From positions 1-39,573 of the forward strand of contig DVFI01000037.1 of assembly GCA_018713305.1 (NCBI GenBank): DNA of 39,573 nt, read 5' to 3'. Under the pieces are notes generated by a model that worked only from the letters and a program-made list of their open reading frames with translations, had not been told where the DNA came from and made no database searches. Position 1 is the stretch's first letter. Every line of letters begins with the position of its first letter. Both the position numbers and the translations under genes were made by a program. Origin of the DNA: Candidatus Avichristensenella intestinipullorum (GTDB lineage Bacteria; Bacillota; Clostridia; Christensenellales; Aristaeellaceae). Shown piece by piece: positions 2,756 through 31,241 of this stretch.

Positions 2756-2915
2756 GGTGACAAGACTCCTTTCATTGTTCTTGCAAGGGTAGCTTGGCCG
2801 TCATCCCCGACGCTTGTTTTTCACCCCCTCGAACAGCTTGCTGCCGCATGATTTTGCATACATGCGGGGGCTTCGCCTTCGATGACGCCTATACACCCCT
2901 TTTGCTCCTAAGGAT

Positions 2916-2921
2916 ATTATA
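2916..2921 (-). promoter_or_regulatory. Candidate -10 of GH3 no. 1
   Basis: A perfect TATAAT on the minus strand, about 160 nt before the GH3 no. 1 start. No good -35 is visible at 16-18 nt (AGCCTG or GCCTGC). This fits an activator-dependent promoter, and two GCAC-type elements lie just upstream (2951-2961 and 2999-3013). The rest of the 287-nt gap (2756-3042) shows nothing else I can name. Confidence 0.5.
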
Positions 2922-2950
2922 ATCGCTTTCTTTCCCTGCAGGCTTTGAGA

Positions 2951-3013
2951 ATAAAGCACAGCAAATGAAAAAAACCAGTCTACATCAGAATCAATGCATA
3001 AAATCCAGCACAG
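2951..3013. promoter_or_regulatory. Two GCAC-type elements upstream of GH3 no. 1
   Basis: On the plus strand ATAAAGCACAG (2951-2961) and TAAAATCCAGCACAG (2999-3013) lie 52 bp apart. They match elements upstream of the response regulator and of the sensor kinase (AAATCCGGCACTG, AAATACAGCACAAG). Relative to the GH3 start they are on the opposite strand. Proposed as binding sites of the YesN-type regulator; inference from motif sharing only. Confidence 0.4.
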
Positions 3014-3042
3014 CTCATGCGCTTTTCAGTTTCCCCCGCGGC

Positions 3043-4182
3043 CTACTCCGATTCCGCAAAGACAATATCCGCCCCGGCCAGCAGGCTGTCCAGGCGTTCC
3101 TCCAGCCGGGCGTCCATCTGCTCGCCGTATAGCGCGGCGCGCAGCGCCTCGCGCAGGTCGTCCGTCAGCGCCACCGCTCCCGCCTCCACGTCCGCCAGGT
3201 AGTACAGGATGTGAACGTTGTCGCCGAACACCAACGGCTGGCTTACGTCCCCCGGCCGGGCCAGCGCGTCCGAAAACACCGCCTGCACAAAGCTTTCCTC
3301 CCAGAGGACGGAATCCGGGTGAACCTGGTAACCCGTCCTGGCAAACTCCGGGTCGTCAAAGGCGCTGTCCTCGCCGTATTCGGCAATCAGGCTTTCGAAG
3401 GCCTCGCCCGCCTCCAGACGGGCATAGATTTCGTCCGTCTTTTCCTCGACCGAGGCGAGCTTTTCCGCTTCGGTATCCCCTTGCGCGCTCAGCAGGATTT
3501 GCAGCACGGCGCGGTACCCCGCGGGGCGGTACCAGACCTCCTGCCCGCTGGCCAGCGCCGTTTCAAAGGCTTCCACATCCTGCGCATACAGGCCTTCGCT
3601 CTCGGCCACGCGCTGCTGGTACGCCGTCTCGACGGCCTCGTCCGTAACCGGGGCTTCCCCGCGCATGAGCCATGCCTCGTACCGTTCGGACGCCAGCGCG
3701 TTGCGATAGTAGTTTTCAAAAAAGCCGAGCGTATACCCCGCCGTCTCCAGGGCTTCCTGGGCGCGCTGCGCCGCGGCCGCGTCTCCGCCCTCTCCGCTCT
3801 CCTCCTGCCCGGCGTAGTAGGCCGTGTAGTCGGCCAGCAGCGCGTCGAACGCCGCCTGCGCGGAGGCCACCACGGCGCTTTCGTCCTCCGCGGTCCATTC
3901 ATACATCCCCTGCTCGGTCATATCGCGCGTCAACAGCCGGTCCTCTATGATTTGCTGCTGCGCCACGCTCTTGATGGTCGCAAGAACCGTCGCATCCGAC
4001 GTGTCCAGCCCCAGTCGGGCCATGCTTTCCGTCAGCGTGGCCATCATCGCGTCGATTTCCGCCTGGTAGACGGCGTCGCCGTTTACCCAAAAGGCCACGC
4101 CTTCGGCTTCGCTTTCGCCCTGCCCCATCGCCGGCAGGCACAGAACGAGCCACAGCAGGCACCATGCGCAGGCTTTTTTCAT
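3043..4182 (-). CDS. PrsA/SurA-like peptidyl-prolyl isomerase (secreted foldase)
   Basis: 379 residues from the ATG at 4182, which follows AAAGGAG by 9 nt; ten more in-frame codons upstream lack such a site. A signal peptide (MKKACAWCLLWLVLCLPAMG) is followed by a SurA-like N-terminal helical region that begins WVNGDAVYQAEIDAMM. A parvulin-type region (about 190-330) has the family pattern: an AVLQILLSAQ strand, ARLEAGEAFESLIAEYGED, FSDALARPGDVSQPLVFGDN, then HILYYL. There is no clear lipobox: the cysteine near residue 15 follows LVL. PrsA-type foldases assist folding of exported proteins, and its place beside three secreted GH3 genes suggests such a role. It could equally be a general chaperone with no link to the locus. 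Confidence 0.8.
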   Translation of the reverse strand: MKKACAWCLLWLVLCLPAMGQGESEAEGVAFWVNGDAVYQAEIDAMMATLTESMARLGLDTSDATVLATIKSVAQQQIIEDRLLTRDMTEQGMYEWTAEDESAVVASAQAAFDALLADYTAYYAGQEESGEGGDAAAAQRAQEALETAGYTLGFFENYYRNALASERYEAWLMRGEAPVTDEAVETAYQQRVAESEGLYAQDVEAFETALASGQEVWYRPAGYRAVLQILLSAQGDTEAEKLASVEEKTDEIYARLEAGEAFESLIAEYGEDSAFDDPEFARTGYQVHPDSVLWEESFVQAVFSDALARPGDVSQPLVFGDNVHILYYLADVEAGAVALTDDLREALRAALYGEQMDARLEERLDSLLAGADIVFAESE

Positions 4183-4210
4183 GCCGCACCGCTCCTTTGC
4201 GCTTTTTTCC

Positions 4211-4238
4211 ATTATACATCGGCCGGCAGGCCCGGCAG
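4211..4238 (-). promoter_or_regulatory. Candidate promoter of the foldase gene
   Basis: Minus-strand TATAAT (4211-4216) with CTGCCG 16 nt further upstream (4233-4238). It lies about 30 nt before the ATG at 4182, leaving a short leader that contains the AAAGGAG ribosome site. Confidence 0.5.
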
Positions 4239-4263
4239 TGGCGAAATCCCGTCAGGGCACAGC

Positions 4264-4364
4264 AACAATCCAGCACAAGCCGGCCGCAGCGGCTTGCGGC
4301 GCGGCGTTTCGCCTCCTGACCGGGATACAAAAATCCGGCACTGCCGGGAAAATAACCGGCACTG
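4264..4364 (+). promoter_or_regulatory. Three GCAC-type direct repeats upstream of the response regulator
   Basis: AACAATCCAGCACAAG (4264-4279), AAATCCGGCACTG (4331-4343) and AATAACCGGCACTG (4351-4364). The GCAC cores of the last two start at 4338 and 4359, so they are 21 bp apart, two helical turns on the same face. The pair ends just above the -35 region of the promoter whose -10 is at 4390. This is the usual layout for an AraC-type activator bound next to RNA polymerase. Similar elements occur upstream of the kinase and GH3 no. 1. Confidence 0.55.
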
Positions 4365-4366
4365 TG

Positions 4367-4395
4367 CTGAATCGTCCCATCCGATGTGCTATACT
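4367..4395 (+). promoter_or_regulatory. Promoter of the response regulator gene
   Basis: -10 TATACT at 4390-4395 with a poor -35 (CTGAAT, 4367-4372, spacer 17). The start codon lies 34 nt downstream. The weak -35 directly abuts the GCAC repeats, suggesting positive autoregulation. Confidence 0.55.
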
Positions 4396-4429
4396 ACGCA
4401 TGAAAAGGATTTGCGGAAGGAGCGTTGTC

Positions 4430-5905
4430 ATGTACCGTGTCCTGATTGCGGATGACGAGATGCCTGCTCTTCGCTTTACGCGCAATATCATCCAGCAGTT
4501 TTCTTCGCAGTTTCAGGTGGTGGACGCAGTCATCAGCGGAGAAGCCGCCCTGAAAGTTTTAGAGTCGCAGGCAATTGATCTGCTGATTACGGACATCAGC
4601 ATGCATGGCATGTCCGGCATCGAGCTGGCGAAGCATGCGAAAAAGCTTCAGCCGGATATCCATATTGTCATCATCAGTGGCTACGGGGAATTTGAATACG
4701 CGCAGGGCGCCATTCAGGCGGGCGTGGACGAGTATGTGCTCAAGCCGGTCAGCATCAGCAAAATGACGTCCATCCTTCAGACCATCCAGGGAAAGCTGGA
4801 CAGCGAACAGCAGGAACAGGCCGCCGCCATCCTGCCGGCCATCGCCTGCCGCCAGCCGTACGACGAGGCCGCGGCCGTCAAGCTCTACGCCCGCAGAGGC
4901 TGGTTTTTCGCCTATGTGCTATGGGGCAACCTGAACATGCGGCTTCCGAAAAAGCTGGGCGCCACGCGGCTGGTTTCGCCCTCGCAGGACAATTTCTTTA
5001 TCCTCAGCGGCCGCGACGACGAAGAGCATATCCTGATTTCCAAGGACGAAACCCTGGAAAACTTCCTCATGAACCTGAGCGTGTTCATGGCGCAGGCGGG
5101 CACCCGGCCGACCTGGACGGTGGTATACAACCCCACGCCGCAGCCGATGAAAACCCTGGCCGGCTTTGTGGACAAGGCGCTGGAGATGGTATACCAGAAA
5201 ACGGTAATCGGCAAGCACCAGATTCTCAAATACAGCGCCGGCTCCGTGCGCGAGGAGAGGCTTACCCTCTCCGCCGCTTCGCTGCGGCAGCTGGCCTATT
5301 TCGTCAGCACGGGCAAAAAGCATCTCGTGAAGGATTTTTTCATTTCCCACGCCGTGCAATGGGAAAACGGACAGATTTCCCAGCGCCAGGTGTGGCATAT
5401 GGTCCACCAGATTCTCTACCAGCTCGCCACGGCCCACCAGCCGATCAACAACCGCCTCACGGACATTTTGCAGGATACGGACGAGATGATTCACTGCGCC
5501 GCCTCGTACGGCGATTTGATGGCGGGCGTCTACAGCCTGCTGTTCGACAGCGACAATGCGCTCGACCGCAGGATGACCGCCCAGGAGCTCTACAACTGTG
5601 CCGTGGAGTACATTCAGGCAAACTATGCGCAGCCCCTGAGCATGCAGAGCATCTGCGACGAGCTGGGGATTTCACAGACCTATCTGAGCCGCCTGTTCCG
5701 CAAGTACGGGAACACGACTTTCAATACCTTCCTGACCCGCTGCCGCATGGACGCCGCCATTCAGATTCTGCAGGAAAAGCCGAATATGCTCCTGCGGGAG
5801 GTGGCGGCCTGCGTGGGCTATGAGGGCTCCTCGTATTTTTCCAAGGTGTTTCATCAGTACACGGGCAAAACGCCCTCGCAGTATTTTTCCGATGTGCAGG
5901 AATAG
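4430..5905 (+). CDS. YesN-type response regulator with AraC-family DNA-binding domain
   Basis: 491 residues from the ATG at 4430, chosen because GGAAGGAG sits 7 nt upstream and the product then starts as a canonical receiver domain (MYRVLIADDE). Receiver residues: acidic D8/D9, phospho-acceptor D55 (LLITD), S83 and K105 (LKP). A variable middle region (about 120-380) follows. The last 105 residues hold two AraC helix-turn-helix units, the first with MQSICDELGISQTYLSRLFRKY and the second ending in YFSKVFHQYTGKTPSQYFSD. Such regulators pair with YesM-type kinases; the only one here is at 15717-17564. The gene is divergent from the foldase and converges on the ABC ATPase gene. The GCAC repeats in front of it suggest autoregulation. 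Confidence 0.92.
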   Translation: MYRVLIADDEMPALRFTRNIIQQFSSQFQVVDAVISGEAALKVLESQAIDLLITDISMHGMSGIELAKHAKKLQPDIHIVIISGYGEFEYAQGAIQAGVDEYVLKPVSISKMTSILQTIQGKLDSEQQEQAAAILPAIACRQPYDEAAAVKLYARRGWFFAYVLWGNLNMRLPKKLGATRLVSPSQDNFFILSGRDDEEHILISKDETLENFLMNLSVFMAQAGTRPTWTVVYNPTPQPMKTLAGFVDKALEMVYQKTVIGKHQILKYSAGSVREERLTLSAASLRQLAYFVSTGKKHLVKDFFISHAVQWENGQISQRQVWHMVHQILYQLATAHQPINNRLTDILQDTDEMIHCAASYGDLMAGVYSLLFDSDNALDRRMTAQELYNCAVEYIQANYAQPLSMQSICDELGISQTYLSRLFRKYGNTTFNTFLTRCRMDAAIQILQEKPNMLLREVAACVGYEGSSYFSKVFHQYTGKTPSQYFSDVQE

Positions 5906-5943
5906 GGCGGGCGGCCTGCCGGAAAAGGGCGGCTGCGCAAGGC

Positions 5944-6058
5944 ATCCGAACCCGCCGCGCATGTCGCCGGGTTCGGATTGCATCGGGAGGGATTCGGCCC
6001 TCCCAGCCTCCCAATGGGGTTGTCGACGGTCTGGGGGCGGCATGGCCATGCCGCCCCC
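5944..6058. terminator. Row of three hairpins between convergent genes
   Basis: Three inverted repeats lie in series between the regulator (+) and the ABC ATPase (-). One has an 11-bp stem (ATCCGAACCCG at 5944-5954 with 5968-5978). The second has a 7-bp stem (GGGAGGG at 5985-5991 with 5998-6004). The third is a 26-bp perfect palindrome made of 13-bp arms (GGGGGCGGCATGG at 6033-6045, complement 6046-6058) with no loop. Only a poor T tract follows on the plus strand. Most likely a bidirectional terminator. Confidence 0.6.
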
Positions 6059-6073
6059 TTGCTTTGCCCATCG

Positions 6074-7198
6074 TTACGCGTTGATGCGGTTCTGGGTTTC
6101 CGGGTCGAACAGGTGCAGCTTGGCCAGGTTGGGAACCAGGGAAAGCTCCTTTTCCGTCGGCTTCTGCTCCCCGGTGTACTTGAACACGACCACCTTTTCG
6201 CCCACGCGCACATAGATAAGATACGCGTCGCCCAGCGGCTCAATGGAATCCACATGGGCGTGAATGGCGTTTTCGCCGCCCGCGGCAAGCTCAAAGTCGG
6301 ACGGGCGCACGCCCAGGTCCACCTTCCGGTCCGCATATCCCTCCAGCGAAGCCTTCAGCGCGTCGGGCACGGCGAGGCAGAAATCGCCGGCGTCCAGCGT
6401 CAGGGCGCCGCCGTCCCCGCGCCTGACCGTGCAGGAGAACAGATTGATCTGCGGCGTTCCCAGGAAACCCGCCACAAACTCGTTGGCCGGATGGTCGTAC
6501 AGGTCGTCGGGCGTTCCCTGCTGCATGATGCGGCCGTCCTTGAGCAGCACGATGCGATCGGCCATGGTCATCGCTTCGGTCTGGTCGTGGGTGACATAGA
6601 TGGTGGTGATGCCGAGCTGGAGCTGGATTTTCTTCAGCTCATAGCGCACCTGGTCGCGCAGCTTGGCATCCAGGTTGCCCAGCGGCTCGTCCAGCAAAAA
6701 CACCTGCGGGTCGCGCACCAGCGCGCGTCCCAGCGCCACGCGCTGGCGCTGGCCGCCGGAAAGCTCCGCGGGACGGCGATCGAGCAGCTGCTCGATGGAG
6801 AGCATCCGCGCCATATAGTCCACGCGCCTTTGGACTTCTTCCTTGGGCGCCTTTTTGGTCTTCAGGGCGAAGGACATGTTCTCGCGCACGGTCATGTTGG
6901 GATACAGCGCGTACTCCTGAAACACCATGGCGATGTTGCGCTCCTGCGGCGGCACAAACGTCTTGTCCTTGCCCTGGCCGCTCGCGCTGGTCATCACGTC
7001 GTCTCCAAAGCGGATTTCGCCATGGACAGGATGCAGCAGCCCGGCAATGCAGTGCATGGCCGTGGATTTCCCGCAGCCGGACGGCCCCAGAAATACGCAG
7101 AACTCGCCGTCCTGTACTTCGAGATTCAGCTTGTCCAGCACGTAGGTTTTGCCCCGGTTATACGACACACTCAGGTCCTTGATACTGATGGAAGCCAT
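6074..7198 (-). CDS. MsmK/UgpC-type ABC transporter ATPase
   Basis: 374 residues. It hydrolyses ATP on the inner face of the membrane to drive CUT1-type sugar importers. Walker A GPSGCGKST (38-46), Q-loop Q94, signature LSGGQ (146-150), Walker B VFLLDEP (166-172) and switch H204 are all intact. After about residue 235 comes the OB-fold regulatory domain of the MalK/MsmK family. AAAGGTG precedes the ATG. It is the last gene of the operon, 110 nt after GH3 no. 2. Having its own ATPase in the operon is notable because many Bacillota share one MsmK among several sugar permeases. No lone second copy is visible in the window. Confidence 0.93.
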   Translation of the reverse strand: MASISIKDLSVSYNRGKTYVLDKLNLEVQDGEFCVFLGPSGCGKSTAMHCIAGLLHPVHGEIRFGDDVMTSASGQGKDKTFVPPQERNIAMVFQEYALYPNMTVRENMSFALKTKKAPKEEVQRRVDYMARMLSIEQLLDRRPAELSGGQRQRVALGRALVRDPQVFLLDEPLGNLDAKLRDQVRYELKKIQLQLGITTIYVTHDQTEAMTMADRIVLLKDGRIMQQGTPDDLYDHPANEFVAGFLGTPQINLFSCTVRRGDGGALTLDAGDFCLAVPDALKASLEGYADRKVDLGVRPSDFELAAGGENAIHAHVDSIEPLGDAYLIYVRVGEKVVVFKYTGEQKPTEKELSLVPNLAKLHLFDPETQNRINA

Positions 7199-7308
7199 AT
7201 GATCACCTTTCTCAAACAGCAGATTGCTGGTCTTCTGCGGGGAAGAGGGGCCGGCGCGGCCGCCGCACGCGGCCCTCTGCCGGCACGCCTCCGCCCCGGC
7301 GCCGCGCG

Positions 7309-9198
7309 TCAGGCGCCGAAGCTTTCCACCTCAATGCCAAAGCCATACTCAAACAGCGGATCTTCGATATCCATGGGCAGATCCTCGCGCTGGTTGAGCA
7401 CCTGTTCCATGGTGCGGGGAATCTGGAAGGGCGTTTTGCCGGTAATGGGCGTCTCGCCATAGAGCGCGTTTACGACGGCCTCCGCGCCGCAGGTAACGCC
7501 GGGACGGTACGCCAGCAGCACGCTGTCGGCCAAATCGACCATCTCCGTCATCACATAAGCGCGGTTCATCAGCACCACTTCGACCACGTTCGCGCCGGCA
7601 TCCGCCAGGGCTTTGACCAGGTCCACCTGCTCCTGCGGGAACTCCAGGGTTTCCGTGCCCCAGGACGGCTCATGGGTGCCGCTCTCCTCGCCAATCACCA
7701 CAATGGCGGTCGTGCCGGTCAAATCGGCCGGGACCTGAGCCGCCTCGGCGATGTAGGTCACGTTCTCCGCGCCAATCTTGTTCTGGAACGCTTCCAGCAG
7801 GGTCGTGCCTTCGATTTCAATGGGGTCCTTGGCGGTCCAGCCGCTGTTGAGCGCGCGCACGTCCTGCGCCAGCTCGCCCGCCACCACAATCTTCTGTTCC
7901 GCCAGCGCAGCGGCGTTTTCGTACTTCAGCAGCGTCAGCGACCGGGCCGCGGCCTCCCTGGCAACGGCGCGATGCTCTTCGGAGCCGAGCACGGCCGCGG
8001 CGTTCTCCTCGTCCACATAGGGATTTTCAAAAATGCCCAGCTCGAACTTGGCCACCAGAATCCGGCGGCACGCGTCGGTGAGGCGCTCCTCGGCCACGCC
8101 CTCGACAAGCTGGCGGGTGGAGCGCACGCCCGCGCCGCCCAGGATATCCGCGCCCGCGTTGGCGGCGCCCACAAAGTTCAGGCCCCAGTCCGTCTGGATA
8201 ATGCCCGTGTAGCCCAGCTCGCCGCGGAGCAAATCGGTCATGACGGCGGCGGACTGGTCCGCAGAGTTTTCTACGGCGTCGCCGCCCAGATAGGGCACGG
8301 TGGAATAGCCGTACGGCATGACCGCCGCCACGCCCGCCTCAATGGCCGCCTTGAATCCGGCCAGGTGCAGGTCGATGGAATCCTCCTGAATGGTCAGAGG
8401 CGTGCCGTCCACGCCGTCGGTCTGCGCGCCGGCGCCCGGGAAGTGCTTGACCGTAGCGATGACGGAATCCTCCGTGAGGGTGCTGCCGACCTGCAGGGCC
8501 TGCACGGCCGCCACAATCAGCTCCTGGACGACCTCGGTGTTTTCAGAATAGCATTCCTGGTTCCGGCCCCAGCGGGGGTCGGTAATCAGGTCGGCGTCGG
8601 GGCTGAGCGCCATGCGCACGCCCACGGCCAGCAGCTCCTGACGGAGCACTTCGTTCAGGCGCGCCACCAGCTCGGGATCGCCCACGGCGCCCTGGTTGAT
8701 TTCATCGGGAAGGAAGGTGGCATCCTTGACAAACGCCGCGCCCGCCTCCGTGTCCATGGAGAAAATCAGCGGGATGCCAAGGGCCGAGCTTTCGGACAGC
8801 TCCTGGATTTCGTTGGTGCGCTGCGCGGCCTCCGTCGCGCTGTCGAAGATATATTCGTATACCAGCGCGAAGCCGACGTTGCTGTCGGTAAACCAGTCGT
8901 CCTTCTTGCTCACCAGCGTCAGATGCACCATTTGGGCGGCCTTCTGCGTGGCGTCCATACGGCCCAGCAGGTCCTCGGCGCGCTCTTCCGGGGTCAGCCG
9001 CCAGTCCTCGTAGGGGTCGAGCTCGCCGTTGTTGTTGAGGTCCTTAAACTGATAACCGTCCACTTCAATAATGTTCTTAACCCGCGCCACCAGCTCCGGC
9101 TGCACCGGCGCTTCCTCTGCCAGGACGGCCGGGCACGCCGAGAGCGTCAACAGCCCTGCCAGCAACACGGAAGCCAGCTTTCTCCACATGCGTTTCAT
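7309..9198 (-). CDS. Secreted glycoside hydrolase family 3 enzyme (GH3 no. 2)
   Basis: 629 residues. The export signal contains LSAC at 19-22, a plausible lipobox, so the enzyme may be a membrane-anchored lipoprotein; cleavage after VLA at 27 is the alternative. An EF-hand-like loop DLNNNGELDPYEDWR begins at D53. The GH3 barrel carries DPRWGR (207-212), KHFPGAG (251-257) and QTDWG with the predicted nucleophile D337. The C-terminal GH3 domain (about 410-600) completes the enzyme, with no extra C-terminal module. Beta-glucosidase-like action on oligosaccharides outside the cell is the best guess. It lies between the second permease (15-nt gap) and the ATPase. AAAGGAGAAGGAGA directly precedes the ATG. 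Confidence 0.92.
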   Translation of the reverse strand: MKRMWRKLASVLLAGLLTLSACPAVLAEEAPVQPELVARVKNIIEVDGYQFKDLNNNGELDPYEDWRLTPEERAEDLLGRMDATQKAAQMVHLTLVSKKDDWFTDSNVGFALVYEYIFDSATEAAQRTNEIQELSESSALGIPLIFSMDTEAGAAFVKDATFLPDEINQGAVGDPELVARLNEVLRQELLAVGVRMALSPDADLITDPRWGRNQECYSENTEVVQELIVAAVQALQVGSTLTEDSVIATVKHFPGAGAQTDGVDGTPLTIQEDSIDLHLAGFKAAIEAGVAAVMPYGYSTVPYLGGDAVENSADQSAAVMTDLLRGELGYTGIIQTDWGLNFVGAANAGADILGGAGVRSTRQLVEGVAEERLTDACRRILVAKFELGIFENPYVDEENAAAVLGSEEHRAVAREAAARSLTLLKYENAAALAEQKIVVAGELAQDVRALNSGWTAKDPIEIEGTTLLEAFQNKIGAENVTYIAEAAQVPADLTGTTAIVVIGEESGTHEPSWGTETLEFPQEQVDLVKALADAGANVVEVVLMNRAYVMTEMVDLADSVLLAYRPGVTCGAEAVVNALYGETPITGKTPFQIPRTMEQVLNQREDLPMDIEDPLFEYGFGIEVESFGA

Positions 9199-9213
9199 TC
9201 TCCTTCTCCTTTC

Positions 9214-10107
9214 TTACGATGCGGTCACAGCGCCGCTCATCTGTCCGCTGATGAGGTATTTGCCCATGAAGATATAAAGGATTAAAACCGGCAGCGCCAG
9301 AATCAGAGAGCCCGCCATCTGCACGTTAAACTCGGCCGCCATGGTACCGGCCAGCTCGTTGAGGGCGATGGTGGCGGGCTTGGAGTCGTAGCCGCCCAGG
9401 ACCAGGGCGAAGAGCATCTCGTTCCAAATGGAAGTGCACTGGAACACAAAGACGGTAATCGTCGCAATTTTGGTATTCGGCACCACAATCTTGCGGTAAA
9501 TCCGCCACATGCCGTTGCCGTCTATCATGGCCTGGCGTATCAGCGCGTCGGGCACGTCGGCATAGTAGCCGCGCATCATGACGGTGCACATGGGCATGCC
9601 GAATACGGAGTGAACCAGCACAAGGCCCCACACGTTGTCATACAGGTCCAGCGCGTTGATGGTTTGCAGCAGCGGAATGAGGATGGCCTGGTAGGGCAGG
9701 TAGGTAGCGGCGACCAGCGCGATGAAAAACACGTTGTTCATCCGGAACTTCCACTTGCTCAGCGCGTAGGCGCACACAGACCCCAGGAACACCGACCCCG
9801 TCGCGCCAAAGAGGGTAATAATCAGCGATATGCCCAGGGGCTGGCCCAGCTCCTCCATGGCGCTCGCATAGCCCTCCAGCGTCCATTCCGAGGGCGGCAT
9901 GATGGGCGTGGAGGTCATCACTTCGCTGTTGGTCTTAAAGGAGGTCATGACCGTTCCCCAGAACGGAAGCATGTAGAACACCAGGAAAACCAGCATAATC
10001 AGGTAGTATACCGCATGCAGCACCGTCATGTGCCACCGGGGCCGGATTCGCAGCGTTTGCGCCTGCTGGCCTTCCCGGCTGCGTTCAATGTTCATTTCGT
10101 TTTGCAT
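9214..10107 (-). CDS. CUT1 sugar ABC transporter permease, MalG type
   Basis: 297 residues with six predicted membrane segments after a charged N-terminus. The first starts near residue 29 (VLHAVYYLIMLVFLVFYML). The EAA coupling loop is present as ALIRQAMIDGNGMWRIYRKI followed by VVP, the site that docks onto the ATPase. Its partner is the permease encoded 4 nt upstream (10112-11143), and the pair should form the channel for the sugar caught by the binding protein at 13239-14606. AGGAGG lies 10 nt before the ATG. GtsC-like proteins of glucose/mannose transporters are the closest group I would test. Confidence 0.93.
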   Translation of the reverse strand: MQNEMNIERSREGQQAQTLRIRPRWHMTVLHAVYYLIMLVFLVFYMLPFWGTVMTSFKTNSEVMTSTPIMPPSEWTLEGYASAMEELGQPLGISLIITLFGATGSVFLGSVCAYALSKWKFRMNNVFFIALVAATYLPYQAILIPLLQTINALDLYDNVWGLVLVHSVFGMPMCTVMMRGYYADVPDALIRQAMIDGNGMWRIYRKIVVPNTKIATITVFVFQCTSIWNEMLFALVLGGYDSKPATIALNELAGTMAAEFNVQMAGSLILALPVLILYIFMGKYLISGQMSGAVTAS

Positions 10108-10111
10108 ACGC

Positions 10112-11143
10112 TTACTTCCTCCTGTTCGTCCAGTAAGTCAGCGGCAGAATCAGCACCAGCACCAGCGCCAGCAGGAAGCAGCTGATGGCCGCGGAATAGG
10201 CGAAGTTATTGCTCTGGAACGCTTCGTTGTACATCCAGACGGGCAGCGTCCAGGCCGAAGAGGTGGTGTAGCCCACCAGGGATACGATAAAGTCGAAAGA
10301 GCGCAGCGCGTACATGGCCAGAATGGTGATGCAGCTTCCCATGGCGCCCTTGAGCTGGGGAATGATCATTTTGCCATAAATCCGGGGCATATAAGCGCCG
10401 TCGAGCTTTGCGGCGTTGATGATGTTGGTGGGCACGTTCTTGATGGCCGCCAGGAAGATGACCGCCACATAGCCGGAGAACTGCCACACCATGGCGATGA
10501 TGATGGACAGCATAATGGTGGAGTTGGAGGAAGCCCACATCAGATGGCCTTCCCGCATCGCGGCGGATACGTTGACCCCCAGCAGGCTCAGGAACGAGTT
10601 GAGCACGCCGCCGGTCGGACGATACATATAGGCCCACACGGTGCCCGTAACCACGAAGGACAGCGCGAAGGGCAGCAGAATCAGCGTGCGGAACACGGCC
10701 GTCCCGCGCAGGCCCTGGTCCATAATCAGCGCCAGCCCGAGGCCCAGCAGCAGACACAGGGGAATCAGGCAGAAGAGCAGAAGCGTATTTTTCAGCGTGG
10801 GCCAGAACTGATCGCTGGTGAACATGCGGGCATAGTTGTCAAAGCCGCCCCATCCGTAGCTGGCTTCCAGGCTGCCCGCTTCCCAGTCGGACACGGACAC
10901 CCACAGGTTCCAGCCCAGCGATACATAGACGAAGTATATCAGCAGGCCGGCGGGAATCAACAGCCATACCAGCGGATGCCGCCGGAAAAAGCCGCGCACC
11001 GGCGCAATGCTTTTGGGCGCGAACGCGCCCAGAAGCTGGTAGAGAACCACGACCGCCACAACCACCGCCAGAGCAATCCAGAACCGCTCATGGGAAAAGG
11101 TCATGTAGCCGATGGTTTCCAGAAATTCGGAGAATGCTTCCAC
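10112..11143 (-). CDS. CUT1 sugar ABC transporter permease, MalF type
   Basis: 343 residues if started at the GTG at 11143, which has GGAGG 8 nt upstream; an ATG five codons earlier (11158) has no ribosome site. Eight or so hydrophobic segments are predicted: an extra N-terminal helix (ERFWIALAVVVAVVVLYQLL) and a second near PLVWLLIPAGLLIYFVYVSL, then the six core helices. The EAA loop reads INAAKLDGAYMPRIYGKMII. Partner of the MalG-type permease immediately downstream. The 120-nt gap above it (11144-11266) contains the end of GH3 no. 3 transcript leader and no separate promoter that I can see. Confidence 0.9.
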   Translation of the reverse strand: MEAFSEFLETIGYMTFSHERFWIALAVVVAVVVLYQLLGAFAPKSIAPVRGFFRRHPLVWLLIPAGLLIYFVYVSLGWNLWVSVSDWEAGSLEASYGWGGFDNYARMFTSDQFWPTLKNTLLLFCLIPLCLLLGLGLALIMDQGLRGTAVFRTLILLPFALSFVVTGTVWAYMYRPTGGVLNSFLSLLGVNVSAAMREGHLMWASSNSTIMLSIIIAMVWQFSGYVAVIFLAAIKNVPTNIINAAKLDGAYMPRIYGKMIIPQLKGAMGSCITILAMYALRSFDFIVSLVGYTTSSAWTLPVWMYNEAFQSNNFAYSAAISCFLLALVLVLILPLTYWTNRRK

Positions 11144-11266
11144 AGGCAGTGCCTCCATTCGTTCGTTTGCAGAAAACAGGAGCGGGAGAGGGGGCGCGGC
11201 GGTATGCGCAGGGGCGCGCCGCGCCGGAATTCCTCTGTGTTCCTGCTCCTGTCTCCCGTCTCCCCG

Positions 11267-13249
11267 TTACTCGTCGTAGCTCAGGCCCCAGCCATAGTCG
11301 TACAGCGGGTTCTCCAGATCAAAGGACACGTCGCCTTCCTGGTTGTTGACCGACGCCATATCGCGCGGGAACTGGATGGGCGTTTTGCCGGTGGGATTGT
11401 TCAGGCCATAGAGCGTTTCCGCAATGGCGATACCGCCCTGCTGTCCCGGATAATAAGCCTCCAGAATGGCGTTGGTGTTTTCGTCGCACCAGGTCAGGAT
11501 GTAGGGGCGGCCGCCGGTGACCACGGTCACGATGGGCTTGCCGCTGGCTTTGGCCACTTCCAGAATCTCCTGCTGGCTGGAGGTAATCTCCAGGGTATCA
11601 TAGCCCCACGGCGGATCGTGCTGGTAGCTGGGTTCGCCGACGGACACGATGATAACGTCCGCGTCCTCCGCCAGCTCGGCGATGCGCTCCAGGTCTTCCG
11701 GTTCATAGACGACGGTGGTGTTCTCGCCCGCATACGCGGCCACCGCGTCCGCGATGGTCAGGCCTTCCTGCGCCGAGGACCAGCCGCCCACCAGCGAATC
11801 CATATCGCCCGCGCGCGGGCCGCAGACCAGGATGTTCTGCTCCGCGTCGGGATCCAGGGGCAGGATGCCGTCGTTCTTCAGAAGGGTCATGGCCTTGCGG
11901 GCCGCCTCCAGGTTCACGGCCATGCTTTCTTCGTTGCCCACGAAGGACACGGCGTATTCCACGTCGCAGTAGGGATTCTCGAACACGCCCATTTCAAACT
12001 TGACCTTGACGATGCGGGTCGCGGCCGCGGTGAGAATCTCCTCGTCGATTTTGCCTTCATTGGTGTACTGCTCCATCTGGTCGATGAGGCGGATGCTTTC
12101 GCCGCCGATGCCGTCCACGCGGCTTTCGGTGATGCCAATCAGAATGGCCTCTTCATCGGAGACCTCTTCGCCGGTCATGGTGCCCAGCGCTTCCTGGATG
12201 GCCCAAATCATGCCCCAGTCCGTCTGGATGATGCCTTCAAAGCCCATCTTGTCGCGCAGCAGGTCCTGCAGCGTGGCCTTGGAGCCGATGGCGGAGTTTT
12301 CCATGTCCAGCGTGAGCGGCACGGAATAGTACGGCATGACGGCGGCCAGATTGACTTCCAGCGCCGCATAATAGGGCTTGAGGTGAATCTCCAGGGTTTC
12401 CTCGGTGGAGACGATGGGCGAGGTGTCCTTGCCGTCCATCTGCGGGCCGGCGCCGGGGAAGTGCTTCATGCACGCCACAATGGAACCGCTGTTGAGGCCC
12501 TCGGTGCCGTTCTGGAACGCCACGACCTGCGCGGTCACCATTTGCGTGACCAGGTCGGGGTCCTCGCCGAAGGTTTCCATGACGCGGCCCCAGCGGGGCT
12601 CGGAGGCGATGTCCGCCTCGGGCGAGAGCGTCATGCGCACGCCGACGGCCAGGTGCTCTTCGCGGGCGATTTCCGCCAGCCTGGTCACCAGCTCCTCGTC
12701 GCGGGTGGCGGCCAGGGCCAGGTTATGCGGCGTCACGGTGGAGCCCGATACATAGGACAGGCCGTGGACGGAGTCCATGGAGACCAGTACCGGCACGCCC
12801 AGGCGGGAGCCCTCGGCGTATTCCTGAATGACGTTCATGGTGGTAGCGGCCGCTTCGACGCTGTTCAGCTCGCGAATCAGCAGCATGCCGATGCTCTCCA
12901 GGTTGCACCACTCCTGCAGGTAGGAAGGGATTTCACCGTCCGCGCGGGGCAGGAAGGTGGGGTGCTGCATCTGCGCAATCTTTTCGCGCACGGTCATCTG
13001 GCTGACCAAATCCGCCGCGCGGGTGTCGGCGTCCTGCCGCCAGTCCTCGTACACGTCCAGCGCGCCGTTGTCGTTCAGGTCGATGAACTGATAGCCGTCC
13101 GCCTCGATGATGGATTTTACACGGGGGTTGAGCGTCGGCTGTTCGAAACTTTCTCCTTCGGCGAAGGCCGCGCCGGCCATGAGCGTGCATGCCAGCGCGA
13201 CGGCCGAAGCCAGGGACAGAGCCCTCCGCCACATTCTTTTAGTCAACAA
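11267..13249 (-). CDS. Secreted glycoside hydrolase family 3 enzyme (GH3 no. 3)
   Basis: 660 residues from a TTG at 13249 with AAAGGAG 9 nt upstream, inside the end of the binding-protein gene. That start gives an N-terminus (LTKRMWRRALS) that aligns with GH3 no. 2 (MKRMWRKLAS), which favours it over the ATG at 13234. The overlap of 11 nt implies translational coupling. A signal peptide (cut after AFA, about residue 30) is followed by an EF-hand-like loop from D57 (DLNDNGALDVYEDWR). Then come EPRWGR (217-222), KHFPGAG (262-268) and QTDWG with predicted nucleophile D344. The C-terminal GH3 domain contains LLKNDGILPL near residue 456. Likely a beta-glucosidase/xylosidase-type exo-enzyme feeding the transporter. 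Confidence 0.92.
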   Translation of the reverse strand: MLTKRMWRRALSLASAVALACTLMAGAAFAEGESFEQPTLNPRVKSIIEADGYQFIDLNDNGALDVYEDWRQDADTRAADLVSQMTVREKIAQMQHPTFLPRADGEIPSYLQEWCNLESIGMLLIRELNSVEAAATTMNVIQEYAEGSRLGVPVLVSMDSVHGLSYVSGSTVTPHNLALAATRDEELVTRLAEIAREEHLAVGVRMTLSPEADIASEPRWGRVMETFGEDPDLVTQMVTAQVVAFQNGTEGLNSGSIVACMKHFPGAGPQMDGKDTSPIVSTEETLEIHLKPYYAALEVNLAAVMPYYSVPLTLDMENSAIGSKATLQDLLRDKMGFEGIIQTDWGMIWAIQEALGTMTGEEVSDEEAILIGITESRVDGIGGESIRLIDQMEQYTNEGKIDEEILTAAATRIVKVKFEMGVFENPYCDVEYAVSFVGNEESMAVNLEAARKAMTLLKNDGILPLDPDAEQNILVCGPRAGDMDSLVGGWSSAQEGLTIADAVAAYAGENTTVVYEPEDLERIAELAEDADVIIVSVGEPSYQHDPPWGYDTLEITSSQQEILEVAKASGKPIVTVVTGGRPYILTWCDENTNAILEAYYPGQQGGIAIAETLYGLNNPTGKTPIQFPRDMASVNNQEGDVSFDLENPLYDYGWGLSYDE

Positions 13250-26620: not shown

Positions 26621-27097
26621 TTACGACGCCGTTTCCGCAAGCTCGCGAATGGAAGAGACGGGGACGATTTCCTTCAGCTCGCTGTGCAAATCCAGATAAT
26701 TCTCCAGCGCCTCCACCAGCCGGGCGATATCCTCCTTCGCCCGTGCCAGGAGCGTGTCCGCGTCGGTCTGCGCCATGGCGCAGGCCAGGATATACACATG
26801 GCGCGGCGTCAGGCGGCATACGCCGTATACCACGCCGCGCTCTTCGCGGGGAAGGAGATTGCCCACCGCCACGCGCAGGCGGTCCCTGCCGTAGCGCCAG
26901 ATATGGTTGAGGTATGCGTCGCCGTGCTGCAGGCGCAGCACGCACCGGCAGCAGGGCGCGTCCGCGCGCAGCGGCAGCTCCAGCACCGAGAGCCTCCTGT
27001 CCAGCGCCGAGGCGTTGGAAATCTGCCCATGCCACAGCTCGTCCCAGAAGTCAAGGCGCATTTCCGGCAACAGCACACCCAAAGAATTGCTCTGCAT
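26621..27097 (-). CDS. Small protein resembling the middle domain of YesN-type regulators
   Basis: 158 residues from the ATG at 27097, which has AAGGAGG 9 nt upstream. No receiver or DNA-binding domain and no signal or membrane segment. The pattern is reminiscent of the region between receiver and helix-turn-helix in YesN/AraC regulators. It includes LDFWDELWHGQISNASALDR, then CCRCVLRLQHGDAYLNHIWR, a mid-protein VAVGNLL and a helical end LLARAKEDIARLVEALENYL. This likeness is by eye only. It lies 17 nt after the acyl-ligase/SPT-like fusion gene and so is probably co-transcribed. It could be a regulator remnant or a free-standing ligand or partner domain. Confidence 0.5.
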   Translation of the reverse strand: MQSNSLGVLLPEMRLDFWDELWHGQISNASALDRRLSVLELPLRADAPCCRCVLRLQHGDAYLNHIWRYGRDRLRVAVGNLLPREERGVVYGVCRLTPRHVYILACAMAQTDADTLLARAKEDIARLVEALENYLDLHSELKEIVPVSSIRELAETAS

Positions 27098-27114
27098 GAA
27101 TGTTTTCCTCCTTG

Positions 27115-30100
27115 TCAGGCACACGGCGCCGCGTTGGGTTTCCCATCGGTGGGCGGCAGTTCAATGCGCAGCTCCGCCGCCGTCTCTACCAGCAAATCCA
27201 GCGCCTGGATAATTTGCTCCGGCCTGTGCTCGGATATGACGCAGAAGCGCAGGCGGGCTTTATTCTTGGGCACGGCCGGATAGACGGCGGGCGGCACGAA
27301 GACCCCCTTGTCCCCCAGCGCCGTGGAAAGAAGGAAGGCGTCCTCGTCGCGGCCCACCAGGATGGGGACGATGGCCGTCTCGGCGGCGAGGCAGGTGTTG
27401 AGGTTGCGCTTGTGCGCCTCCTCGAGGAATACGGCAATGTTGCGGCGCAGATTCTCCATGATTTCGGGATGCGACTGCAGCGCCCGGACGGCGGCCAGCG
27501 TCGCCGCGGCCAGCGGCGGAGAGATGCCGACGGAGAACACGAACCCGGGCAGGCTGTAACGCAGATAATCAATCAGGCATTTTTTGCCCGCCAGATAGCC
27601 GCCGCAGGTTCCCAGTCCCTTGGACAGCGTGCCCATTTTGATGTCGATATCGTCGTGCGCCAGGCCGAAGTATTCGTCCACGCCGCCCCCGGTCTTGCCT
27701 ATGACGCAGGCGGAGTGCGCTTCGTCCACCATCAGGAAACAGCCGAACTGCTTTTTCAGCCGCACGAACTCCGGAACCGGCGCGATGTCGCCGTCCATGC
27801 TGTAAGCGCCCTCCACGACAATGAGCACCTTGGCAAAGCGGTGGCGCTGCGTGCGCAGGATGCTCTCCAGCGCCGCCACGTCGTTGTGGGGGAAGGGCTT
27901 GCTGGTCGCTCCGGACAGGCGGCAGCCCTCCTGGATGGAATTGTGCGAGAGCGCGTCGTAGACGATCAGGTCGTTTTTGCCGCAGAAATTGCCCACGATG
28001 GTCACGTTGGTCGAATGGCCGCCCACCAGCACCAGGGCGGCTTCGGCGTGTTTCCAGCGCGCCAGCTCGCGCTCCAGCTCCTGGTAGAGCGATTTTTCGC
28101 CCGCAAGCAGCCGGCTGCCGCTGGCGGAGGTGCCGTATTTGTCAATGGCGGCCTTGGCCGCTTCCATGGTTTCCTTGCGGCCGGACATGCCTACATAGTT
28201 GTAGGAGCCGAAGTTGAGCACGCGGCGTCCGTCCATCAGGGAGGTGTCCGACAGCGCGGATTCATGGCAGACAAAGTAGGGGTTGCGGCTGCCTTCCATG
28301 CTCTCCAGCCGCTTTTGAAACGCCTGGTACTCGGGCGTGTCTTCAAAGCGGACGATGGGTTCGATGGGTTCGCTTTCGTCCCGCTCGGCCTGCGACTGGT
28401 ACGGGCCGTGGCCCTGCATGTGCGCGTAGACCAGCGCGGTCAAATCGTTGACGCTGGTGCACTGATAATACTCTTCCGTGGGGATGACGACGCCGAAAAT
28501 CTCCTCCACCTTCAGCGAGACGCCCAGGCTTTGCAGGCTGTCCCCGCCCAAGTCCTCAATAAAATGCGCGTCGTCGCCGATGGACGCCTCGTCGGTTTCC
28601 AGGACCTCCGCAAAGCAGGCCCGCACCTTACGGCGCACCTCGTCCAGCTGCAAATCGTCCGGCTTCTGCGCGGGCCGGGGAAGGCTTTCCTGCGGCTGCG
28701 GCGCGCCGGACACCGGCTGGCCGACCGCCTGGTCGGACAGCATCCGGTATGCAATTTTGCGCGTCTCCAGCTGCTGGCGCAGCGCAATGCGCTTGACCTT
28801 GATGCCGTTGACCACGGGCAGCGCGTCCGGGGTGGCCAGCACGCGGCGCACCCGGCGAAGGGGCTGCAGGGCGCGGTTGCGCTGCCTGACCTGGCGGGCC
28901 AGGTTCAGCAAAAACGCCTCGTCTCCATAGCGCGCGCCCACGGCCAGCACCAGCGTGGCCTGGTCGTAGCCGTCCAGCGCCGTGCCCAGCACGCACATCT
29001 GCTCCACGCCTTCCATGCCCGCAAAGGCGTCCTCCAGCTCGTCCGGATAGATGTTCTCGCCCGATTCGCCGATAATCACGTCCTTGATGCGGCCTTCCAC
29101 CCACATGCGGCCGTGGCGGCCGATGCGCACCACGTCGCCGGTCGCATACCACCCTTCCGCGTCCGTTCGCGGCGGCAGCAGCTTCCCTTCCTCCAGACAG
29201 CCGATGTGCATCGCCTCCGAACGGATGAGAAGCTCGCCCCGGTTGGGGTTTTTCCCGTCCGGGTTCACCCGGTAGGCGCTGATGGAAAACGGCCAGCCCA
29301 CGCTGCCGGTCAGGCGGCTTCGGAGGTTAATCTTGATTTCCGCGGAGGTGACGGCCGTTTCGGTCATGCCAAAGCCGCTGGTGACCGCGTAGCCCAGCGC
29401 ATTGATGGTGTATAGGTGCTCCCGCGGGGTATGGCTGCCGCCGACGATAATCTGCTCCAGCGCATCGCCGAAGAGGTTCCGGTTGATGCGGCGGAAAAGC
29501 CGGCGCGCCATCGGAAGGCCCAGGCGGGGCTCGACGGCCTGCACCGCCAGGGACAGGGAGCGCATGGCGTAAAACAGCGCGCGCGTGGCGACGCTTTCCT
29601 TGGCCAGGCGGCGCTGCAGGGTGACGGAAAGGTTGTTGACCAGGAGCGGTACGGCCAAAATGAACTGCACGCGCAGCGCGCGGCAGGTTTCCAGGATGGT
29701 CTGGGGCGCGCGGTCGCGCAGGTATACCTGCGGATACCCCACAAAGCTGGTCCAGATAACATTGGTCATGAATCCGAAAACATGATTGAGCGGCAGAAAG
29801 CACAGCGTGCGCAGCGGGCCGCGCTTTTCCCGGAACGTCCAGGCCTTCTGCTGCTCTTTTACAATCGCCAGGGTCTGTACGCACACCGCCCGGCCGTCGT
29901 AGACGAATACGCGCGCCGTGGCCGTGGTGCCCGAGGTACACAGCGCCAGGCGGTCCGCCCAGCGCGGAGAAAAAGAGGCGTCCGCCGCCCCGTCCGCCAG
30001 CAGCGCTTCCGGCGTGACCTGCACGCAGGTCATCTCCAGCGACCGCTTGCGCCGGCAAATCAGCGCCCCGGCGCCCGCTTGGCGCATCAGATGCGCGATG

Positions 30101-30411
30101 GGCGCGTCGTCCAGCGAGGGATCGAGCAACAGAGGCTGCCGCCCCGCGGCCACCAAGCCCCAAAACAGCACGGGCCAGTCCGGACAGGTATCCACCGCCA
30201 GCCCTACCCAGCCTTCCGGAACGCCCAGCGCGTCCAGGCGCGCCGCGCAGGCATACGCCCGCGCGCGCAGTTGGCCGAACGTATAGCCGCGCTCCTGTCC
30301 CTCCTCCAGCCACAGCGCGGCCTGCGCCGATTCCTCGCCGCACAGCAGCGCGAAGAAGCCGCGCAAGGTCATGTCCTTTTCCAGCAACGCGCATTTTTCG
30401 CTTCGGGTCAT
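27115..30411 (-). CDS. Fusion: acyl-AMP ligase - acyl carrier protein - SPT-like alpha-oxoamine synthase
   Basis: 1098 residues from the ATG at 30411, with AAGGAGGG 6 nt upstream. Residues 1-560 form an acyl-adenylating domain with TSGTT (159-163), GFGMTET (346-352), YATGD (422-426) and GRIKD; the usual PK after the A3 glycines is AR here. Residues 585-665 are a carrier protein with phosphopantetheine site S625 in GGDSL. Residues 700-1080 are a PLP enzyme with NFGSYNYVGM, SHNSI (H823), VDEAHS (D896, H899) and PLP lysine K931 in TLSKGLG. This part is more like serine palmitoyltransferase (VVEGAYSMDG, EYFGL, GKK.LIDYLR) than BioF or KBL. Predicted: activate a fatty acid, load it on the carrier, condense it with an amino acid to a 3-keto amine. 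The ATG overlaps the SDR stop by 4 nt. Confidence 0.9.
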   Translation of the reverse strand: MTRSEKCALLEKDMTLRGFFALLCGEESAQAALWLEEGQERGYTFGQLRARAYACAARLDALGVPEGWVGLAVDTCPDWPVLFWGLVAAGRQPLLLDPSLDDAPIAHLMRQAGAGALICRRKRSLEMTCVQVTPEALLADGAADASFSPRWADRLALCTSGTTATARVFVYDGRAVCVQTLAIVKEQQKAWTFREKRGPLRTLCFLPLNHVFGFMTNVIWTSFVGYPQVYLRDRAPQTILETCRALRVQFILAVPLLVNNLSVTLQRRLAKESVATRALFYAMRSLSLAVQAVEPRLGLPMARRLFRRINRNLFGDALEQIIVGGSHTPREHLYTINALGYAVTSGFGMTETAVTSAEIKINLRSRLTGSVGWPFSISAYRVNPDGKNPNRGELLIRSEAMHIGCLEEGKLLPPRTDAEGWYATGDVVRIGRHGRMWVEGRIKDVIIGESGENIYPDELEDAFAGMEGVEQMCVLGTALDGYDQATLVLAVGARYGDEAFLLNLARQVRQRNRALQPLRRVRRVLATPDALPVVNGIKVKRIALRQQLETRKIAYRMLSDQAVGQPVSGAPQPQESLPRPAQKPDDLQLDEVRRKVRACFAEVLETDEASIGDDAHFIEDLGGDSLQSLGVSLKVEEIFGVVIPTEEYYQCTSVNDLTALVYAHMQGHGPYQSQAERDESEPIEPIVRFEDTPEYQAFQKRLESMEGSRNPYFVCHESALSDTSLMDGRRVLNFGSYNYVGMSGRKETMEAAKAAIDKYGTSASGSRLLAGEKSLYQELERELARWKHAEAALVLVGGHSTNVTIVGNFCGKNDLIVYDALSHNSIQEGCRLSGATSKPFPHNDVAALESILRTQRHRFAKVLIVVEGAYSMDGDIAPVPEFVRLKKQFGCFLMVDEAHSACVIGKTGGGVDEYFGLAHDDIDIKMGTLSKGLGTCGGYLAGKKCLIDYLRYSLPGFVFSVGISPPLAAATLAAVRALQSHPEIMENLRRNIAVFLEEAHKRNLNTCLAAETAIVPILVGRDEDAFLLSTALGDKGVFVPPAVYPAVPKNKARLRFCVISEHRPEQIIQALDLLVETAAELRIELPPTDGKPNAAPCA

Positions 30412-31241
30412 CGCCTTCCCTCCTTCTTTGGGGGACTGTAGTACGCCGCAAGGATGCGGTAAAACCAATGCCCCGGCAATAAATCATGGAGCCAGGCGGC
30501 CAGGCGCTGATCGGGCCCGGCGACAATGATGCGGGCCGGAGGACGCCGCCTGCGCAGCGCGCGGGACACGGCCCGGGCCACCCGCTCGGGCGGCAGGCCG
30601 CCGCTTTCGTCCGCGCGGATGCGCGCACAGGCGCCGGCATACGACGCGGCATAGGGAGAGCCTTCCAGCCCGGCGGCCCGGGCATGCAGCCGGTACGCGT
30701 CCGACCCGCCCCGGCAGTCGCCCGGAGCCACCAGCGTGACCTGCACGCCGAAGGGACGCGTCTCCATCGCCAGGCATTCGCTCCATCCTTCCAGCGCGTG
30801 CTTGGAGGCGGTATAAGCGCCCTGGAAGGGAATGCCGAACAGGCCGTTGAGCGAGGAAAACTGCACGATACGCCCGCCGCCCTGCGCGCGCATCGCCGGG
30901 AGCACCGCCTGGACCATGCGCACCGCGCCCAGGAAATTGGTGTCCAGCACGCGCCGTATTTCCTCCACGCTCGTCTCCTCGCCGCTGCCCAGCGTCAAAA
31001 GCGCCGCGCAGTTGACCAGCGCATCGATGCGGCCTTCGGCGTCGAGCACACGCCGCACGCAGTCGGACACGGACGCGCCGTCCGTCACGTCCAGCGGCAC
31101 GGCCTGACAGCCCTCGGGCGGAGCTTCTCCGCGGGCAAAGGCGCGCGCCCCCGCATAGGTGCGCCATCCGTCGGCGGCCAGCCGGCGCGCCACCGCGCGC
31201 CCCAGGCCGGACGAAGCGCCCGCCACCAGCGCCACCGGCAT
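30408..31241 (-). CDS. Short-chain dehydrogenase/reductase, candidate 3-keto-base reductase
   Basis: 277 residues. Rossmann motif GASSGLG (8-14), NCAA (77-80) in place of the usual NNAG, S129/S130, and the catalytic Y143-TAS-K147. The C-terminal tail (about 235-277) is hydrophobic and basic (LHDLLPGHWFYRILAAYYS), which could hold the protein at the membrane. It is a classical NAD(P)H-dependent SDR. Co-expression by a 4-nt overlap with an SPT-like fusion suggests reduction of the 3-keto product to an amino alcohol, the role of 3-ketosphinganine reductase. The pairing is the evidence; sequence alone does not fix the substrate. GAGGG lies 7 nt before the ATG. Confidence 0.85.
   Translation of the reverse strand: MPVALVAGASSGLGRAVARRLAADGWRTYAGARAFARGEAPPEGCQAVPLDVTDGASVSDCVRRVLDAEGRIDALVNCAALLTLGSGEETSVEEIRRVLDTNFLGAVRMVQAVLPAMRAQGGGRIVQFSSLNGLFGIPFQGAYTASKHALEGWSECLAMETRPFGVQVTLVAPGDCRGGSDAYRLHARAAGLEGSPYAASYAGACARIRADESGGLPPERVARAVSRALRRRRPPARIIVAGPDQRLAAWLHDLLPGHWFYRILAAYYSPPKKEGRR

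Follow-up and report, generated by a model that had tools for sequence, protein, structure and literature searches.

A ligase-carrier-synthase fusion coupled to a reductase gene as a probable source of sphingoid bases in a family of Clostridia

The window analysed here, the whole stretch of 39,573 nucleotides from Candidatus Avichristensenella intestinipullorum (contig DVFI01000037.1), encodes a protein in which an acyl-AMP ligase, a carrier domain and an alpha-oxoamine synthase are joined on one chain, together with an adjoining short-chain dehydrogenase/reductase (SDR). The question raised by this locus is which product is formed by the pair. Judging from the sequence, the pair probably makes a sphingoid base: the fused protein would activate a free fatty acid, load it onto its own carrier and join it to serine by condensation, giving a ketone that the SDR would then reduce. 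In the proposed course of the reaction, S625 of the carrier would be primed by the sole ACPS-family enzyme seen in the genome (a 126-aa open frame), and the free fatty acid would be converted to acyl-AMP and then to the acyl thioester on S625. Serine would form an aldimine on K931, decarboxylative condensation would give 3-ketosphinganine, CO2 and the free carrier, and the SDR would reduce 3-ketosphinganine to sphinganine.

As described in an earlier note on this DNA, the three domains follow one another in the order ligase, carrier, synthase (Table 1). Each of them scores above its Pfam cut-off. The residues and motifs pointed out in that note, S625, K931, VVEGAYSMDG, EYFGL and GKK.LIDYLR, are all present in the fusion, and S625 lies in a GGDSL motif, being the predicted phosphopantetheine site of the carrier. 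The overlap between the SDR stop and the fusion ATG, also noted there, amounts to four bases (ATGA), and a ribosome-site-like AAGGAGG is located 7 bases 5' of the fusion ATG.

The three-domain order, which the earlier note had proposed to seek in other genomes, is that of a conserved family and not a chance arrangement. In a protein search, 7993 candidates were scored and 880 were found at E ≤ 1e-3; the best 120 of these 880, which are listed, all have the three Pfam domains within 1073-1141 aa, at 56-100% identity. S625 and K931 are invariant among the 33 family members aligned. The named relatives among the matches listed are Clostridia or related assemblies. When named genomes were scanned, 11 loci were obtained, four of them partial or distant, where L009 and L010 correspond to G001 and G014 of our genome set (G and L codes denote genomes and loci). 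Five further fusion loci (L011-L015) include one in Clostridium sp. N3C, whose record does not carry the label of a metagenome-assembled genome, and one, L015, in which the fusion copy is broken into three open reading frames (ORFs).

The position of the synthase domain was determined in two trees, of 49 and 43 rows; the serine palmitoyltransferase (SPT) of S. wittichii, the plant SPT subunit LCB2a and a Thermus enzyme (ThAOS) were added to the latter, and neither tree holds CqsA or PfSgaB rows. In the tree of 49 rows, a polyketide-linked group is joined with the fusion clade (100/99 for the clade and 100/99 for the joint node), and a branch of 98/92 separates these two groups and the SPTs from BioF, KBL and ALAS. 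In the 43-row tree, the fusions form their own clade (100/99), which is sister to the polyketide-linked synthases with a joint support of 100/98, and LCB2a joins both (97/86) as a long branch whose exact position is unsure. A branch of 95/89 divides the fusions, the polyketide-linked rows, LCB2a, the bacterial SPTs and one Bryobacterales row from KBL, BioF, ALAS and ThAOS, and the bacterial SPTs lie across a further branch of 93/81. Grouping of the fusion and polyketide-linked rows with BioF or with KBL, the outcome on which the earlier note would have abandoned its reading, was rejected (p-AU 0.0006 and 0.0016, respectively); an arrangement in which they are held with all SPTs, the Bryobacterales row excluded, was not rejected (p 0.21). 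By sequence comparison, the synthase falls firmly on the side of the SPTs, apart from BioF and KBL, and it does not lie within the classical bacterial SPTs. The SPT-like character claimed for it earlier thus holds as regards the side of the tree, but its nearest relatives are polyketide-linked synthases and not classical bacterial SPTs.

With the C-terminal end of a polyketide synthase from Planktothrix, the window synthase shares 49.9% identity. Values of 42-46% were obtained for a synthase domain within a Streptomyces protein of 1607 aa and for the synthases that stand alone in Pseudomonas, Sinorhizobium, Paraburkholderia and Shinella, 40% for the Acidisoma synthase, 37% for the S. multivorum SPT, and 31% for BioF and KBL of E. 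coli. For four of the seven polyketide-linked rows, the annotation shows a type I polyketide synthase at the locus or close to it; the 2502-aa neighbour in Sinorhizobium is annotated as an SDR and counts as a polyketide synthase by inference only. The stretches read from Shinella, Sinorhizobium, Acidisoma and Pseudomonas each include an SDR. On plasmid p3 of Planktothrix agardhii, glycosyltransferase and fatty acyl-AMP ligase genes are found near a type I polyketide synthase (L088, 13584-21182), the C-terminal synthase of which shares 50% identity with that of the window.

The hallmarks of an alpha-oxoamine synthase are all present in the fusion, namely the pyridoxal phosphate (PLP) lysine K931, the stacking His H823, D896 and the carboxylate Arg R1055, where the residue roles are taken from PMC9304779 and PMC10196870. 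These four residues, together with H899, T928 and S930, are those of the S. multivorum SPT. In total, 14 of the 22 positions compared are identical, including His138, Ser185, Asp210, Ala212, His213, Thr241, Ser243, Lys244, Ser273 and Arg367 in the SPT numbering; the eight that differ are 52, 53, 79, 83, 112, 114, 271 and 274. Asn52 of the SPT corresponds to Tyr737 of the fusion, and GSYNY is found in all 120 listed relatives. Tyr also occupies this position in the five polyketide-type rows shown, in LCB2a and in the S. wittichii SPT (the last two by the motifs GSYNYLG and GTYNYMG), and Asn occupies it in the Bacteroidota-SPT rows and the six KBL, BioF and ALAS rows shown. Thr112, which contacts the phosphate in the SPT template (PMC3870968, numbered one lower there), is Gly797 in the fusion, as in Planktothrix.

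Four other readings were weighed against these data. The same machine may use alanine, glycine or another amino acid, leading to a 1-deoxy-type amino alcohol that would serve as a secondary metabolite or signal. The amino acid is not fixable from sequence, the pocket differs from that of the S. multivorum SPT at Ala79 (Ser764), Met271 (Val958) and Ala274 (Val961), and no head-group or N-acyltransferase genes are seen near the fusion. However, Gly765, Ser766, Ser930, His823 and Arg1055 match SPT, and the polyketide-linked PfSgaB of P. fluorescens MYb115, which makes 3-ketosphinganine from L-serine, is reported to prefer L-serine almost exclusively, strongly over alanine and glycine (PMC12134224), so that another amino acid is considered unlikely. 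Cysteate in place of serine would give 3-ketocapnine on a sulfonolipid route like that of SulA, a synthase of the same fold that uses an acyl carrier protein thioester (PMC9304779). This is very improbable, because the lysine that marks SulA (Lys281 position) is Val961 in the fusion, the cysteate marker being absent, and GFVFSVG is found in all 120 listed relatives.

The NCBIfam scores of the synthase reach none of the cut-offs of SPT (NF047600, 312.6 against 640; NF047599, 284.3 against 500; NF047603, 229.9 against 670), KBL (TIGR01822, 235.2 against 493; NF005394, 290.3 against 460) or CqsA (NF005526, 161.7 against 428). The top model by bits is that of bioF, TIGR00858, and several relatives are labelled '8-amino-7-oxononanoate synthase/acyl carrier protein' by JGI, as would be expected if a pimelate loader were fused to a carrier and BioF to form 8-amino-7-oxononanoate for biotin. 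Such a role is even more improbable than the cysteate one, since the bioF score (347.7) also misses its cut-off of 426.45, the BioF grouping is rejected, and the biotin synthase gene bioB is unmatched in the source genome and over the cut-off in only one of 24 genomes searched; moreover, an SDR is not part of the biotin pathway and would have no role there. A KBL-type enzyme has the slightest chance of all. It shares the fold (Z tied within 1), and the KBL of B. velezensis is 39.9% identical to the window synthase; yet the grouping is rejected in the tree test, the other alpha-oxoamine-type synthase of the genome, at C122, already groups with E. coli KBL, and a short-chain CoA enzyme would seem ill-suited to a fused loader and carrier. 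Condensation of a carrier-bound fatty acid with serine is thus preferred.

The ligase module would supply the acid to be condensed. In the model of the fusion, residues 12-559 can be aligned with MenE and further adenylating enzymes, and the nearest solved relative by sequence reaches only 61 bits. The P-loop is CTSGTTATARVF, with an arginine where the usual motif carries lysine, and most relatives are alike. Given this arginine and the weak solved relative, a fatty acid is a predicted substrate of the ligase. Fatty acyl-AMP ligases (FAALs) are marked by a CoA-rejecting pocket and an insertion (PMC8460268).

The SDR has NF049977 KdsR (3-ketodihydrosphingosine reductase) as its top NCBIfam model, the best of 217 matching models. 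The role of 3-ketosphinganine reductase, which the reading of the pair in the earlier note implies, is favored by this ranking, but the score of 215.2 bits lies under the cut-off of 400. In 15 of 23 fusion loci, the gene immediately upstream is an SDR (the window, G001, G012, G015, G020, G023, G433, G434, G438, G458, G459, G460, Clostridium sp. N3C, L013 and L015). Among the eight loci without an adjoining SDR, G005, G007, G008 and G014 have an SDR relative of 44-55% identity elsewhere, and G431, G456, L012 and L014 were outside this search. Among 24 family genomes, the SDR is present in 12 and the fusion-type synthase in 14, with both in 11, the synthase only in 3, the SDR only in 1 and neither in 9 (Fisher p 0.003, with the line for SDR presence, E ≤ 1e-60, set after the hits were seen). 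In the sole SDR-only genome, G009, the SDR lies 35 bases from a contig end.

The 167-aa ORF that overlaps the 3' end of the fusion has no Pfam match and corresponds to a shortened version of a protein of 257-272 aa, to the C-terminal half of which it is related (E 7e-23 to L129 and 9e-10 to L082). The order SDR, fusion, 257-aa protein in G438 is that of the window; in G005, G010 and G014, the SDR is directly followed by a relative of the 257-272 aa protein and then by an SPFH-type protein, and the synthase lies on a different contig. In agreement with the earlier note, no N-acyltransferase is evident among the 45 proteins run through Pfam (25 from the window and 20 from other neighbourhoods), some of which matched no family.

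Table 1. Features of the fusion locus, in window positions.
Feature	Position	Strand	Basis
Ligase-carrier-synthase fusion, coding sequence	27115..30411	-	ATG start, 1098 aa plus stop
Acyl-AMP ligase N-terminal domain, PF00501 AMP-binding, residues 34-401	29209..30312	-	Pfam 123 bits, over cut-off
Carrier domain, PF00550 PP-binding, residues 594-661	28429..28632	-	Pfam 54 bits, over cut-off
Alpha-oxoamine synthase domain, PF00155 Aminotran_1_2, residues 730-1072	27196..28224	-	Pfam 150 bits, over cut-off
SDR coding sequence, 277 aa, likely 3-ketosphinganine reductase	30408..31241	-	NF049977 KdsR top NCBIfam model
Coupling junction, AAGGAGG and ATGA overlap (SDR stop / fusion start)	30408..30425	-	sequence
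167-aa ORF overlapping fusion 3' end	26621..27124	-	no Pfam match; relatives in other genomes

The distribution of the synthase was determined in a set of 100 related genomes, 60 of the window's family and 40 of other families. The fusion-type synthase is present in 29 of the 60 family genomes, as a full fusion in 17, as a piece at a contig end in 3 (G019, G022 and G023) and without a fused loader in 9. A second type, resembling the SPT of Bacteroidota, is present in 8 of the 60, where the copies are 68-100% identical to that of G006, and also in 12 of the 40 genomes from outside the family (57-69%). None of the 60 family genomes has both types (hypergeometric P 0.003, kinship ignored). An SDR of the same kind lies alongside the Bacteroidota-like synthase in 8 of the 12 loci read, and one of the other four, in G031, is cut by the contig end. 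The eight adjacent pairs of Bacteroidota-like synthase and KdsR-like SDR (in G002, G006, G021, G026, G032, G033, G441 and G454; loci L066, L070, L071, L072, L068, L067, L137 and L138) belong to Clostridia-type genomes of the same taxonomic order. Against NF047600, with its cut-off of 640, two synthases of the second type reach 504 and 509 bits, and KdsR is the top model for both SDRs scored beside Bacteroidota-like synthases. A tentative reading, to which we give slightly less than an even chance, is that a Clostridia family with gut members makes sphingoid bases by two mutually exclusive routes, either by a one-chain synthase that loads itself and stands closer to eukaryotic LCB2 than to the classical SPTs of bacteria, or by a Bacteroidota-like SPT, each with the same kind of reductase.

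The loader and the synthase are also found apart. Synthase-only relatives (L061, L062 and L121-L127) show about 67-70% identity, and the two copies put on the tree (G004 and G010) fall inside the fusion clade, which suggests that the loader was lost. Among the 120 proteins listed when a synthase-only copy was used as the query, several of them partial, 34 have a carrier domain and many are near 500 aa, so that carrier-synthase proteins probably also exist. Loader-only proteins occur in G439 and G465, both of which have a Bacteroidota-like SPT. The ligase-carrier piece of G439 (L136, 2-1222) is 48% identical and stops right after the carrier, its N-terminus being cut by the contig. The two in G465 (L140 and L141) are 36 and 32% identical, one of them having 673 aa and also stopping after the carrier, and the Bacteroidota-like synthase there sits on a contig other than those of the loaders. 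In these genomes, the same loader perhaps feeds a separate synthase.

Among known systems, the pair resembles the PfSgaA-SgaB-SgaC type, homologues of which form the sister clade of the synthase and whose cluster contains an SDR, a KDSR homologue proposed to reduce 3-ketosphinganine (PMC12134224). The two differ in the source of the acyl chain, which comes from a polyketide synthase there, whereas here the fused ligase and carrier would load a ready-made acid, as if the polyketide synthase feeding PfSgaB were replaced by a fatty-acid loading module. No match to a polyketide synthase family was obtained among the 25 window ORFs searched. The plasmid homologues in Shinella, Pseudomonas, Sinorhizobium and Acidisoma lie near capsule-type genes, whereas none were seen around the fusion; rkpA/G/H of rhizobia are presumably names for similar polyketide-linked clusters. 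In Caulobacter, an acyl-ACP synthetase (AasR), a dedicated carrier (AcpR) and SPT act jointly, and the SPTs of three Rhodobacteria are reported to prefer acyl-AcpR loaded by AasR (PMC9386255). These three would in effect be merged on one chain in the fusion, whereas they are three genes in Caulobacter, the SPT belongs to a separate branch, and the reducing enzyme is CerR, which in one model acts after N-acylation (PMC11087976). The combination of a synthase and a KdsR-type SDR is shared with Bacteroidota, where, however, the synthase stands alone and on a separate branch, and the corresponding NCBIfam cut-offs are not attained by the window proteins.

The three-domain order can no longer be regarded as new, because proteins of the order A-CP-PLP2 were catalogued in 2013, in entries without a product: A1ZVW4 of Microscilla marina and A3ZWL3 of Blastopirellula marina, along with B1XHP8 of Synechococcus PCC 7002, an AMP-binding enzyme with such a PLP domain (PMC3870968). 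The first two share the domain order of the fusion in other phyla, a likeness by description and not by sequence. The architecture is thus already known, and what is new is its presence in a Clostridia family, the coupling to the SDR, the sister relation to the polyketide-linked synthases and the two-type pattern. The view of the earlier note that such a pathway is not established for Clostridia fits the open-licence literature (subscription papers and preprints aside), in which no paper on this protein in Clostridia is found among the matches listed.

The finding matters because Clostridia are not usually counted as sphingolipid makers. The makers named in one account are Bacteroidetes, Chlorobi and some Proteobacteria, with potential in Actinobacteria, and Clostridia are not mentioned in that enumeration; the same source reports that the sphingolipids of P. 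fluorescens MYb115 change the sphingolipid metabolism of C. elegans and its survival of infection (PMC12134224). If the proposed reaction holds, at least 29 of the 60 family genomes, those with the fusion-type synthase, would be candidate long-chain base makers, and the fusion would be a compact enzyme leading from free fatty acid and serine to a sphingoid ketone. With the two-type pattern, the question of why a lineage swaps synthases would become testable.

The source genome comprises 2.35 Mb in 151 contigs and is 95.6% complete. The G+C content is 63% in the window, 65% in the fusion and 72% in the SDR. Elsewhere in the window, three family 3 glycoside hydrolase-like genes lie amid ABC sugar transport genes (239-13249).
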